Source: Vibrio artabrorum (GTDB taxonomy: Bacteria; Pseudomonadota; Gammaproteobacteria; Enterobacterales; Vibrionaceae). From it: 64,000 bases of DNA. A program made the position numbers and the translations under genes. The notes under the pieces are model-generated. The model searched no databases. It had not been told where the DNA came from and worked only from the letters and a program-made list of their open reading frames with translations. The DNA lies in contig NZ_AP025458.1 in assembly GCF_024347295.1 (NCBI RefSeq), forward strand, positions 2,108,001 through 2,172,000, given 5' to 3'. Shown piece by piece: positions 25,885 through 52,435 of this stretch (its first letter is position 1; the number at the start of each line of letters is the position of its first letter).

Positions 25885-26057
25885 GAGATGCCCGACTACG
25901 CTCCTTCGTCGCTATCGGGAATGACGAACTCGGTGATGAATCTTCCAGCTATAGGCTCTAACATACGTCCTCGAATACTCAGTCTCCAAAGAGAAACTCT
26001 GGCAAACACTCTCGAACACCCCGTCATTCCGACGAACCTAGGCGAGATCAGGAATCT
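25885..26057. repeat. Diverged pair of arms of the GTCATYCC dispersed repeat family
   Basis: An arm of about 42 bp (25885-25926, GAGATGCCC...GGGAATGACG) resembles the right arm of the 128-bp array unit at 50.6-51.6 kb. An oppositely oriented arm (26022-26057, CGTCATTCCGACGAA...GGAATCT) resembles its left arm. About 95 bp lies between them. The rest of the purU-yecM gap holds nothing else that I can support. Confidence 0.65.
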
Positions 26058-28867: not shown

Positions 28868-28910
28868 CGATCTGCGACTATATTCCTTCGTCGCTCTAAG
28901 AGATGACGAA
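28868..28910. repeat. Single degenerate arm of the dispersed repeat family
   Basis: GATCTGCGAC...CCTTCGTCGC...GATGACGA resembles the right arm of the 128-bp repeat unit. The surrounding argS-HIT gap (28821-29040) has no ORF that I would call. Confidence 0.5.
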
Positions 28911-29044
28911 ACATATTTCTACCCGACCATCATACCCTACAGTGAGGCACTAACGTGGTCGGAATCTGCTGATTAAGAACGTAAGCCCTAGCCACATTCC
29001 ACCTCCAACCTTATACTCATGTAAAACAATTAATTGGAAAGATC

Positions 29045-32633: not shown

Positions 32634-32767
32634 ATCGAAGAGAAATCCCTTCTCTTTAATTTTATTCCAGAGGTGATGTGGCTTGCCATATCACTCCGGC
32701 AGCAAGCGAAGGTGTCCTTGGCACCCGTGGTATAGTCCCCCCGGCTATACCACGACATTTTTTTTCT
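32634..32767 (+). ncRNA. tfoR: Small RNA TfoR (chitin-induced competence sRNA)
   Basis: The gap between feoA and the TfoS-like gene has no credible ORF. It contains three consecutive hairpins: GTGATGTGGC with GCCATATCAC (32673-32694), GGTG with CACC (32711-32725), and a 10-bp terminator stem CGTGGTATAG with CTATACCACG (32726-32754) followed by eight or more T. In V. cholerae the gene for TfoR, an Hfq-dependent sRNA of about 100 nt that activates tfoX translation, lies in this same feo-tfoS gap and is activated by TfoS. A -10-like TATAGT is at 32622-32627 with no good -35, as expected for an activated promoter. The 5' end is a guess; the RNA may start 20-30 nt later. Confidence 0.72.
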
Positions 32768-32768: not shown

Positions 32769-32818
32769 TTATTCCCGACTTCACCATCCAAACAATCTTT
32801 AAACTCTCAGCTTACCCT

Positions 32819-32854
<36 letters not shown>

Positions 32855-32863
32855 TCGTAGAAT

Positions 32864-49241: not shown

Positions 49242-50531
49242 ATGGCGGATAAGAAAGCTACCCTTCACATTGAAGGTCATGCTCCGATCGAACTGCCGAT
49301 TACAGAAGGTGCACTTGGTACACCCGTGATCGATGTTCGCACACTGGGTTCGAATGGTTTTTTCACTTTTGACCCGGGTTTTCTTGCCACTGCATCTTGT
49401 GAGTCTCAAATCACTTTTATTGATGGTGGAAAAGGTATTCTTTTACACCGTGGTTATCCCATTGACCAACTTGCCAATAACGCTGATTACTTAGAAGTAT
49501 GTTACATACTTCTTTACGGTGAAGCCCCATCTCGAGCTGAGTACGAAAAGTTCAAGACTACCGTGACACGTCACACTATGGTGCATGAGCAAATCGCGAG
49601 TTTCTTCCACGGCTTCCGTCGTGACGCTCACCCTATGGCAGTAATGTGTGGTGTTGTCGGCGCGCTAGCGGCGTTCTACCACGACTCACTTGATATCAAC
49701 AACGACACACACCGTGAAATCGCGGCTTACCGCTTAATTTCAAAAATGCCGACACTGGCCGCGATGTGTTACAAATATTCAATCGGTCAACCGTTTATTT
49801 ACCCACGTAACGATCTAGGTTACGCAGAAAACTTTTTACACATGATGTTTGCCAACCCATGTGAAGAGTATGAAGTGAACCCTATCGTTGCGCGCGCAAT
49901 GGATAAGATCTTTACACTACATGCTGATCACGAACAAAACGCTTCAACGTCTACTGTACGTCTTGCGGGCTCATCCGGTGCCAACCCGTTTGCATGTATC
50001 GCAGCAGGTATCGCATCACTTTGGGGCCCTGCTCACGGCGGTGCAAACGAAGCTTGTCTGCGCATGCTTGAAGAGATTGGTAGTGTCGATAACATTGAAG
50101 AATACGTGGCGAAAGCAAAAGACAAAGATGACCCATTCCGTTTGATGGGTTTCGGTCACCGTGTTTACAAGAACTACGACCCACGAGCTACCGTTATGCG
50201 CGAAGCGTGTCACGAAGTACTGAAAGAGCTCAACATCCAAGATCCACTATTAGATGTAGCAATGGAACTGGAGCGTATCGCTCTTTCTGATGAGTACTTT
50301 GTTTCTAAGAAGCTATACCCGAACGTCGATTTCTACTCAGGTATCATTCTGAAAGCAATCGGTATTCCTGTCTCGATGTTCACTGTGATCTTCGCAATGT
50401 CTCGCACCATAGGTTGGATTGCGCACTGGAACGAAATGCACAGCGATCCGACGAATCGTATCGGCCGTCCTCGTCAGCTGTATACTGGTGAAGAACAACG
50501 TGACTTTAAAGCGCTTCACGAACGTGAATAG
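49242..50531 (+). CDS. gltA: Citrate synthase
   Basis: 429 residues, the large Gram-negative type II enzyme. Condenses oxaloacetate with acetyl-CoA. Landmarks are [20 protein letters not shown] near residue 50, the catalytic-histidine region [39 protein letters not shown], and [14 protein letters not shown] (with the second catalytic region). AAGGAG precedes the ATG. It is the divergent partner of the sdh-suc block, so the whole TCA set from citrate synthesis to succinate oxidation is nearly contiguous here. Confidence 0.97.
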
Positions 50532-50553: not shown

Positions 50554-50590
50554 AAAGGGGTTGATGCGCGAACATCAACCCCTTTTCTTT
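50554..50590 (+). terminator. Rho-independent terminator after gltA
   Basis: AAAGGGGTTGATG pairs with CATCAACCCCTTTT over a 6-nt loop, with a T-rich tail. Confidence 0.92.
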
Positions 50591-50607
50591 TGTACGCTCT
50601 CAACTCC

Positions 50608-51584
50608 GTCATCCTCAAGAGTGCGAAGTGAACGAATAAAATAATATCGTCATCCCCAAGAACGAGGGACGAGTGAGTTGGGGATCTCAATCAGTTTATA
50701 GAGAACCTTCAGAGATTCCCTACTCCTTCCTCCGTCAGTCTAGGGAATGACGGAGCCTATAAAACGAAACAATGTCGTCATCCTCAAGAGCGAGGAACGA
50801 GCGAGTTGGGGATCTCATTTAGTTTATAGAGAACCTTAAGAGATTCCCTACTCCTTCCTTCGTCAGTCTAGGGAATGACGGTACTTATAGAGCGAAACAA
50901 TGTCGTCATCCTCAAGAGCGAGGAACGAGCGAGTTGGGGATCTCATTTTATTTATAGAGAACCTTAAGAGATTCCCTACTCCTTCCTTCGTCAGTCTAGG
51001 GAATGACGGAGCCTATAAAACGAAACAATGTCGTCATCCTCAAGAGCGGGGAACGAGCGAGTTGGGGATCTCATTTAGTTTATAGAGAACCTTAAGAGAT
51101 TCCCTACTCCTTCCTTCGTCAGTCTAGGGAATGACGGTACTTATAGAGCGAAACAATGTCGTCATCCTCAAGAGCGAGGAACGAGCAAGTTGGGGATCTC
51201 ATTTAGTTTATAAAGAAACTTAAGAGATTCCCTATTCCTTCCTTCGTCAGTCTAGGGAATGACGGTACTTATAGAGCGAAACAATGTCGTCATCCTCAAG
51301 AGCGAGGAACGAGCGAGTTGGGGATCTCATTTAGTTTATAGAGAACCTTAAGAGATTCCCTACTCCTTCCTACGTCAGTCTAGGGAATGACGGTACTTAT
51401 AGAGCGAAACAATGTCGTCATCCTCAAGAGCGAGGAACGAGCGAGTTGGGGATCTCATTTAGTTTATAAAGAAACTTAAGAGATTCCCTATTCCTTCCTT
51501 CGTCAGTCTAGGGAATGACGGTACTTATAGAGCGAAACAATGTCGTCATCCTCAAGAGCGAGGAACGAGCGAGTTGGGGATCTC
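50608..51584. repeat. Tandem array of 128-bp units (seven full, plus partials)
   Basis: Full units start at 50648, 50776, 50904, 51032, 51160, 51288 and 51416, exactly 128 bp apart. A partial eighth of 41 bp starts at 51544, and a decayed fragment precedes the first at 50608. Each unit is arm A (41 bp, CGTCATCCTCAAG...GGGGATCTC), spacer (23 bp), arm B (41 bp, GAGATTCCC...GGGAATGACG) and linker (23 bp). I count 30 of 41 positions shared between arm A and the reverse complement of arm B. Unit 1 is the most diverged; the inner units differ from each other by only a few bases. The array lies between gltA and ybgI, in a 1.1-kb gap with no real gene. Confidence 0.95.
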
Positions 51585-51676
51585 CTTAAGCGAGCAGATA
51601 AACTCTACAGGTTACCTGCTCAATTCTAGAAAATGATGCATACTCTCGACTCGTATCCCTCATCTCGCAACTTCTC

Positions 51677-52435
51677 TTATACCGGATTATCGATATCAAT
51701 AAACTCAACATCCAAGCCATGCTCTTTCGCTAACCATTCACCTAACGCTTTTACGCCATATCGCTCAGTGGCGTGGTGACCAGCAGCAAAATAATGAATG
51801 TCTTGCTCGCGTGCTGAGTAAGTAGTGCGCTCTGAAATTTCACCAGAGATAAATGCATCAATCCCCTGAGAGGCTGCAAGCTCAATGTAGTCTTGACCAC
51901 CACCAGTACACCAACCGACCGTCGTAATCATTTTTTCTTGGTTTTCTGGAGCGATATGCAGAGGCTTGCGATTCAGAGCTCGGTCAATTTTTTCGGCAAA
52001 CTCTGAACCTGTCATTGGTGTTTTTAATTTGCCAAACATAGCTACCGATTGGGGGTGCCCTTCCAAACCGCCTTCGACTTCTATCTCAAGTAACTCTGCC
52101 AATTTTGCGTTGTTGCCAAGTTCAGGGTGAATATCAAGAGGGAGATGGTAACCTAAAAGGTTGATGTCATTTTTAATCAGGGTACGAATGCGCTTGCCTT
52201 TCATGCCACGAATCGCTTCTGACTCGCCTTTCCAAAAGAAGCCGTGGTGAACCAATAGAGCGTCTGCGTTCAACTCTACCGCTTTATCAATGAGCGCCTG
52301 AGAGGCCGTGACACCTGTTACGATGCGCTTCACATCTGATACCCCTTCAACTTGCAAACCATTGGGGCAGTAATCTTTGATCTGCTGCGGTTGCAGTTTT
52401 TCGTTAAGTCGCTTTTCTAATTGTAAGTTATTCAT
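51677..52435 (-). CDS. ybgI: Nif3/YbgI-family dinuclear metal-binding protein
   Basis: 252 residues. The metal-site motifs are ALLVHHGFFWKG near residue 62, HLPLDIHPELGNNAKLAE near 98, and FAAGHHATERYGVKALGEWL near the C-terminus. E. coli YbgI is a toroidal hexamer with two metals per subunit. It was formerly linked to GTP cyclohydrolase I (type 2) on weak grounds, and its cellular role is uncertain. It converges on the tandem array and is divergent from the DUF1853 gene. Confidence 0.9.
   Translation of the reverse strand: MNNLQLEKRLNEKLQPQQIKDYCPNGLQVEGVSDVKRIVTGVTASQALIDKAVELNADALLVHHGFFWKGESEAIRGMKGKRIRTLIKNDINLLGYHLPLDIHPELGNNAKLAELLEIEVEGGLEGHPQSVAMFGKLKTPMTGSEFAEKIDRALNRKPLHIAPENQEKMITTVGWCTGGGQDYIELAASQGIDAFISGEISERTTYSAREQDIHYFAAGHHATERYGVKALGEWLAKEHGLDVEFIDIDNPV

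Follow-up and report, generated by a model that had tools for sequence, protein, structure and literature searches.

The array lies in Vibrio artabrorum between gltA and a gene converging on it from the right. All positions given without a genome or contig label refer to the window, i.e., the whole stretch of 64,000 nucleotides that was analyzed. The gene on the right is an ORF with orthologues at the same site in relatives, and judging by its sequence we take it to be Nif3-like. The interval between the two genes is 1151 bp in V. artabrorum. The following features were assigned:

gltA: 49242-50531, plus strand, left neighbour of the 128-bp array
Intrinsic terminator of gltA: 50554-50585, plus strand, 13 pairs and a T-rich tail, 5' of the array
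A arm preceding unit 1, decayed and truncated: 50607-50635, plus strand, nhmmer E 1.5e-4
Full 128-bp units (seven): 50643-51538, plus strand
A arms, 41 bp each: 50648-50688 in unit 1, later starts 50776, 50904, 51032, 51160, 51288, 51416 and 51544, plus strand
B arms, 41 bp each: 50712-50752 in unit 1, later starts 50840, 50968, 51096, 51224, 51352 and 51480, minus strand
A-B spacer of unit 1: 50689-50711, strand not applicable, 23 bp
B-A linker of unit 1: 50753-50775, strand not applicable, 23 bp, two versions within the array
Partial unit 8: 51539-51590, plus strand, 52 bp (5 bases, the A arm and 6 bases), matching unit positions 1-52
Nif3-like gene: 51677-52435, minus strand

The strict 128-bp period with seven units and a partial eighth, reported in a preliminary description of this DNA, was recovered with Tandem Repeats Finder (50639-51584, period 128, 7.4 copies, 94% matches, 0% indels). 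The start at 50608 given there is sound as well, taking in the decayed A arm. The first unit, rightly singled out as the most diverged, differs from unit 2 by 14 substitutions, and units 3 to 7 differ from it by 7, 1, 4, 1 and 3, respectively. One linker version is common to units 1 and 3, and three changes are common to units 5 and 7; because of these shared variants, blocks of two units have probably also been moved by exchange or duplication. An Rfam scan of the whole window gave no RNA family at the array, and the only matches were tfoR and a tRNA elsewhere.

Arms and their relation to known repeats

Each unit pairs two unlike hairpin repeats of 41 bp, termed A and B, in a head-to-head arrangement. 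Both the A arm (plus strand, CGTCATCCTCAA...TTGGGGATCTC) and the B arm (minus strand, CGTCATTCCCTA...TAGGGAATCTC) are laid out as CGTC, one side of an 8-bp stem, an 18-nt interior, the other side of the stem, and CTC. When A was compared with the reverse complement of B by hand, 30 of 41 positions were identical, the same count as had been given for the two imperfect inverted arms.

For the arm structure, 22 arms of 41 nt were picked by hand from seven genomes and aligned (the 42-nt subfamilies C, E, and G were excluded). Stem cells were paired in 97.2% of cases vs 87.6% in shuffles, and sliding the helix by one position lowered pairing to 55.1% or less. Changes on both sides were seen at four of the eight stem pairs, and two of the five covariation measures (pairs changed on both sides, further pair types) did not exceed the shuffles. 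The search patterns demanded CGTC and the stem AT and partly imposed the outer six stem positions, so that the presence of CGTC in 22/22 arms and the invariant stem start (A-U, then U-A) were built into the search; the two innermost stem pairs were free of the pattern and occurred as UA, GC, AU, and GU, and as AU, GC, and GU. The 18 interior positions are unpaired or weakly paired. The tail is a short, unpaired CTC, except for one arm (G000:C1:1279750) that ends in CTT, the differing column lying outside the stem. The A and B arms are independent hairpins with compensatory changes. Searches of 6, 3, and 12 genomes with the arm pattern read backwards gave zero matches.

By folding energy, single arms had no unusual stability (z from -1.44 to 0.04). 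The whole A-B unit is predicted to fold as one long imperfect hairpin when either strand is taken as RNA: the 105-nt unit reached -42.6 and -39.4 kcal/mol on the two strands (z -4.9 and -4.6), and none of 200 shuffles was as stable. At 4.9 s.d. below the shuffles, this agrees with the earlier proposal that each unit could form a long hairpin.

The arms were compared with the CGTC REPs (Di Nocera et al. 2013, PMC3733652), which include Neisseria dRS3 and Rickettsia RPE-4/6. These have the tag, an 8-9-bp stem with AT first, a 4-5-nt loop (with loop-length exceptions in Bradyrhizobium, K. olearia, and M. prima), and mostly a CCA tail; they occur mostly as head-head dimers, with no dedicated transposase (PMC3733652). 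The Vibrio arms share the CGTC tag at one end and the 8-bp AT-first stem, and they too end in a short unpaired tail, though of another sequence. The pairs are likewise head-head dimers, often heterodimers, and are intergenic, mostly between convergent or unidirectional genes; a Y1_Tnp match is absent from seven of the 13 element-bearing genomes searched. They differ in the interior of ~18 nt instead of a 4-5-nt loop, in the tail (CTC vs CCA) and a length of 41-42 bp, and in forming tandem arrays at several loci. As tag, stem, and dimer form are shared but loop and tail are not, we regard the Vibrio arms as a variant, not a member, of the CGTC REPs. The word Vibrio is absent from the main text of that survey, and the portion of it used here does not mention replication polarity (PMC3733652).

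The tandem form is comparable to that of E. coli BIME-2 (PMC2817692, PMC8266576), in which intergenic units with two inversely oriented REPs are also repeated in tandem. BIME-2 is, however, built from GTAG-tagged REPs linked to the Y1 transposase TnpA_REP, neither of which was found here, the tag being CGTC. Judged by its sequence, the gltA array is probably BIME-2-like, with a Vibrio relative of the CGTC REPs as its building block.

The REPs of Pseudomonas fluorescens are of the GTAG type and come with a RAYT. A REPIN/RAYT system, in which the genome has its own RAYT flanked by the same REPs, does not fit the Vibrio repeats, as seven of the 13 element-bearing genomes have no Y1_Tnp. Dispersed inverted REP pairs and tandem arrays of two types are known from P. 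fluorescens as well (Bertels and Rainey 2011, PMC3116915). Hence the earlier statement that no description is known held for this array in the literature searched but not for tandem arrays of inverted REP pairs as such, which BIME-2 and the P. fluorescens arrays exemplify. ERIC was also considered and rejected, the best ungapped matches of the array to its two primers being 13/22 and 12/22; ERIC is an imperfect palindrome of ~127 bp that has been reported in V. cholerae (PMC2267715).

Dispersal and growth of the arrays

In its own genome, a search with the unit (E up to 10) gave 44 matches, all but one of them on chromosome 1; the remaining one lies on chromosome 2. Among the 41 genomes searched, 11 had unit matches, all of them among the 25 of the same genus, and none was found in the 16 genomes outside it; for several genomes, in which 21 candidates were scored, the match numbers are to be read as at least the value obtained. 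The strict A pattern hit 19 stretches in a named genome collection, all from Vibrio or Vibrionales, with V. splendidus, V. harveyi, V. owensii, V. chagasii, and V. neptunius among the carriers. The phage contigs (viral_contigs) gave zero exact matches to the strict B pattern, and among the plasmids a 2.06-Mb record from V. campbellii gave the only match, a weak one. The A-23bp-B pair is dispersed through Vibrio genomes. In the pairs, CGTC faces outward and the arms stand ~23 bp apart in most arrays; tail-tail neighbours also occur.

Two further places in the window contain arms. A single subfamily E arm lies at 25885-25926 on the minus strand (nhmmer E 8e-15) and points to the terminus, and a decayed arm pair at 28875-28967 consists of a C-like arm (nhmmer E 2.6e-6) and a weak B/E-like neighbour. 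Dense, mostly C-type arms of mixed orientation were seen within 30-60 kb in two other genomes (G005:C1:1629915-1689748 and G011:C2:1022336-1055012), and these clusters are possibly integron cassette regions.

The gltA array was compared with 13 further runs of at least four arms. In most arrays, 23-25 bp separate the head-to-head A and B (or F and A) arms; the departures are mostly 18 bp in G000:C1:721219, 27 bp once in another array, and a B-D run with spacers of 20 and 28 bp; the runs at G000:C1:2481350 and G005:C1:3068357 have no adjacent head-to-head pair. The former (to 2482036) consists of six B arms with a 107-bp period and 66-bp linkers, and one A arm at its end. The B-A linker ranges from 12 to 82 bp in the other arrays and its sequence is locus-specific, i.e., nearly constant inside most arrays and dissimilar between them. 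This constancy breaks down at G012:C5:1834553, whose 12-bp linkers differ in sequence, at G012:C5:313540, in two linkers of G012:C5:471153, and in one 82-bp linker of G145. The equal 23-bp spacing on both sides of the arms is therefore correct for the gltA array but is no rule of the element; at G012:C5:1421067, the linkers are likewise 22-23 bp, with unrelated sequence.

A largely constant spacer combined with a locus-specific linker identifies the A-spacer-B pair as the ancestral unit, from which, together with the local linker, most arrays have grown in place, as read from their sequences. With the pairs dispersed in Vibrio and the arrays grown in place, the recent amplification of a dispersed element, as proposed earlier, is borne out. 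Growth would proceed via slippage or unequal exchange between units, possibly helped by hairpins in single-stranded DNA.

At the gltA site, relatives carry 0, 1-1.5, 2, or about 3 pairs vs seven in V. artabrorum, which excludes an equal unit number in related genomes, named in the preliminary description as a refutation. The site carries A-B in G018 and G124, one B and one A arm in G009 and G012, B-A-B in G005 and G011, and nine arms with a 128-bp period and both linker versions in another species, G145. In named records, the order is B A B A B A B in SWAT-3 and A B A B in HI00D65. The site is empty in G006, and the gltA intervals of G002, G003, G004, G007, G008, G010, G013, G014, and G015 (59-142 bp) contained no arm by eye. 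The insertion thus predates several species of the clade, with the unit number having changed repeatedly, and the site offers a natural series for the growth of REP arrays.

Orientation relative to replication

For orientation, 84 loci with flanking sequence from 14 genomes were clustered by their flanking proteins into 37 main-chromosome sites, with at least one cluster merging two neighbouring sites. The loci were picked mainly for A, B, and F arms, and the site counts of C, D, E, and G are therefore no sample. A single genome, G012, contributes 13 of the 37 sites; it is not closed, and dif on contig C5 was the sole reference for assigning its arms. The origin was placed from rpmH, and dif by its pattern in seven of the first eight genomes and by the midpoint in G009 and six later genomes.

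At 26 of 27 sites, the B/F arms read away from the origin, towards the terminus (two-sided binomial p 4e-7, sites treated as independent), and at 24 of 26 the A arms read the opposite way, to the origin. Without G012, the values were 14/15 for B/F and 13/14 for A. The exceptions are the B arm at G000:C1:1279750 and the A arms at G000:C1:102780 (the same site in G006) and G012:C5:1967542; the D2-G and C-E sites have the opposite direction. The pairs hold a nearly fixed polarity relative to replication, which was unexpected.

A pattern-based tally of eight genomes gave the same picture (B 25/25 and F 7/7 to the terminus, A 27/29 to the origin, C 25:21), with 153 of 214 distinct rows taken and orthologues counted per genome. 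The 61 excluded rows were extra copies inside arrays or clusters, 17 G012 rows (contigs C2-C4), and one G017 row. Six of twelve further genomes had pattern arms, and all 17 B/F copies in them followed the rule; of the 53 arm rows from these twelve genomes, 38 entered the position analysis and 24 (not B/F) the subfamily tally. As the 14 loci of the six later genomes all fall at sites known from the first eight, they indicate that polarity is kept in descent and say nothing of new insertions. Eight sites are on different chromosome arms between genomes with their polarity kept, an outcome that symmetric inversions would also give.

Counted as per-genome loci with orthologues unmerged, subfamilies C (33 to the origin, 21 to the terminus) and G (13:6) did not follow B, and subfamily E leaned as B does (9:2). 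Without G012, none of 43 per-genome B/F loci lay in the terminal fifth of the chromosome, vs 17/85 for C/E/G. Nearness to the origin had p 1e-5 on per-genome loci and was not significant on 20 independent A/B/F sites without G012 (p 0.084).

For the gltA array itself, the earlier idea of a chromosome landmark is speculative, but the dispersed family does carry replication polarity. In P. fluorescens, the tandem REP arrays are split by genome side, five being forward on one and six reverse on the other (PMC3116915), which we read as an earlier hint of the same polarity; the remark covers tandem arrays alone, and no replication rule is drawn from it in the part of that paper used here. Apart from this remark, the literature searched (largely without subscription papers) contained no treatment that we recognized of these Vibrio repeats or of REP replichore orientation.

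Possible causes of the polarity

How CGTC REPs spread without their own transposase was left as an open question by the authors who defined them (PMC3733652). A near-strict replication orientation, held whatever the gene direction, leaves fork-coupled copying or a segregation constraint as the answers. The explanation that we consider probable, taken as a whole, joins a BIME-2-like array of CGTC REP-like pairs, growth in place, polarity, and insertion coupled to the replication fork. Its last step is the less certain one: single-stranded DNA at the fork would be the route by which pairs are inserted or copied, the lagging-strand template carrying the B sequence (5'-CGTCATTCCC), and the enzyme responsible would act in trans or have since been lost. 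IS608 and ISDra2 are documented cases of elements that insert into the lagging-strand template (PMC6006769). Such a mechanism would explain both the polarity along the chromosome and the position nearer the origin, and the leaning of subfamily E, which has no KOPS-like octamer, is counted in its favour. If the mechanism were shared by all subfamilies, the failure of C and G to follow B would be unexpected.

A further point against it is that the Y1_Tnp domain is absent from the seven element-bearing genomes noted above and present in nine of 12 element-poor ones; thus, an HUH enzyme of the Y1 family is not at hand in those seven now. V. artabrorum itself has two Y1_Tnp matches (L001 and L002), both on chromosome 2. 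In G011, 25 IS200-like Y1_Tnp matches were found, and the listed copies are identical in score and length.

Polarity could alternatively be a selected constraint, which we regard as possible, though with less than even confidence. GAGTAGGG is present in most B arms and in some F arms; it is one mismatch from GGGNAGGG, the octamer that orients FtsK and has been proposed as the V. cholerae KOPS (PMC2533119), and it reads in the KOPS polarity, from origin to terminus. In the gltA array, GAGTAGGG is present in five of seven B arms and GGGNAGGG in none of them. Wrongly oriented copies would misdirect FtsK and be lost, and arrays would add KOPS-like sites; on sequence grounds, GAGTAGGG is a candidate for FtsK recognition. 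All 72 motif-bearing B/F copies (60 loci), at 22 of 22 sites, read to the terminus, that is, are skewed towards dif; the sole inverted B arm has GAGTTGGG, without the motif; and subfamilies C and G, which lack it, do not follow the rule. Outside the elements (266 kb), a like skew is seen for GNGNAGGG (39:15) and for GAGNAGGG (19:3). GNGNAGGG is presumably the degenerate form of KOPS, although the literature searched did not show it in print.

Against this constraint, arms without the motif obey nearly as well (B 21/22 and F 2/2; 8/8 in another count), so that a plain motif rule is weakened by 23 of 24 such B/F arms. Subfamily E leans the same way without the motif, as do the A arms at sites without B/F (4:2 sites). 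FtsK of E. coli acts mainly within ~400 kb around dif (PMC3140498), and the elements are scarce near the terminus, with no B/F locus in the terminal fifth. In the remainder of the window, GAGTAGGG is oriented 2:0 the wrong way. Outside the detected elements, a skew is seen as well for GACTGACG, another piece of B (9:2), and undetected remnants may feed the background skew. We therefore lean slightly towards fork-coupled insertion or copying over a KOPS-like constraint, and the two may act together. A replication-polar system in the wider sense, in which A-B pairs enter or survive one way only, through lagging-strand copying or through KOPS-like marks, is put forward tentatively, at somewhat below even odds. 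If it exists, polarity arises in several genomes without a Y1 transposase, and arrays multiply the polarity marks.

Gene context bears on a role of the array as RNA, namely as a bidirectional transcription barrier or 3'-end stabilizer between two convergent genes, which appears unlikely to us. Convergent genes flank 24 of the 37 sites and unidirectional ones 11, with two sites unresolved and none divergent. This placement favours an RNA role, as does the strong predicted fold of the 105-nt unit on both strands, but convergent gaps simply tolerate insertions as well. Between the Nif3-like gene and the array, there is no clear minus-strand terminator, and a single weak candidate lies within unit 1; readthrough into the array would be likelier from this opposing gene than from gltA. 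If transcribed, probably from that side, the array would form a series of long hairpins. REPs have been reported to aid Rho-dependent termination (PMC2817692), and mRNA stabilization by REPs has been hypothesized (PMC3733652). The preliminary description had also considered a buffer acting specifically after gltA, which is not supported, since gltA has an intrinsic terminator of its own ahead of the array. A terminator-like hairpin stands at the equivalent place in relatives with and without repeats, the empty site of G006 included (printed intervals, by eye). An RNA role also does not predict the polarity. Where the genes are unidirectional and an A arm is present, that arm is co-directional with them at three sites and opposed at four, and transcription was rejected as the cause of orientation on these contexts. 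On the favoured reading, the array itself is most likely a by-product, neutral or of slight benefit.

Convergent genes produce positive supercoils, which would suit an array binding gyrase or another chromosome protein. By analogy with E. coli BIME-2, which has the same architecture and binds gyrase (PMC2817692), such a function is conceivable, but it would leave the polarity unexplained and we consider it improbable. An assembly artefact in the unit number or the whole array is hardly credible, as the units carry private substitutions, the 128-bp period with both linker versions recurs at gltA of G145, and arrays with other periods exist at other loci.

Short heptamer runs were observed near elements of this kind. 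In the gltA intergenic region of relatives (G009, G011), the heptamers TACGAGA/TGCGAGA adjoin REP arms, so that runs of heptamers and pairs of REPs may have sites in common. In the window, a perfect 7-bp tandem repeat (TCTCGTA, six copies) lies at 32818-32859, 54 bp past the tfoR sRNA match (32664-32764).
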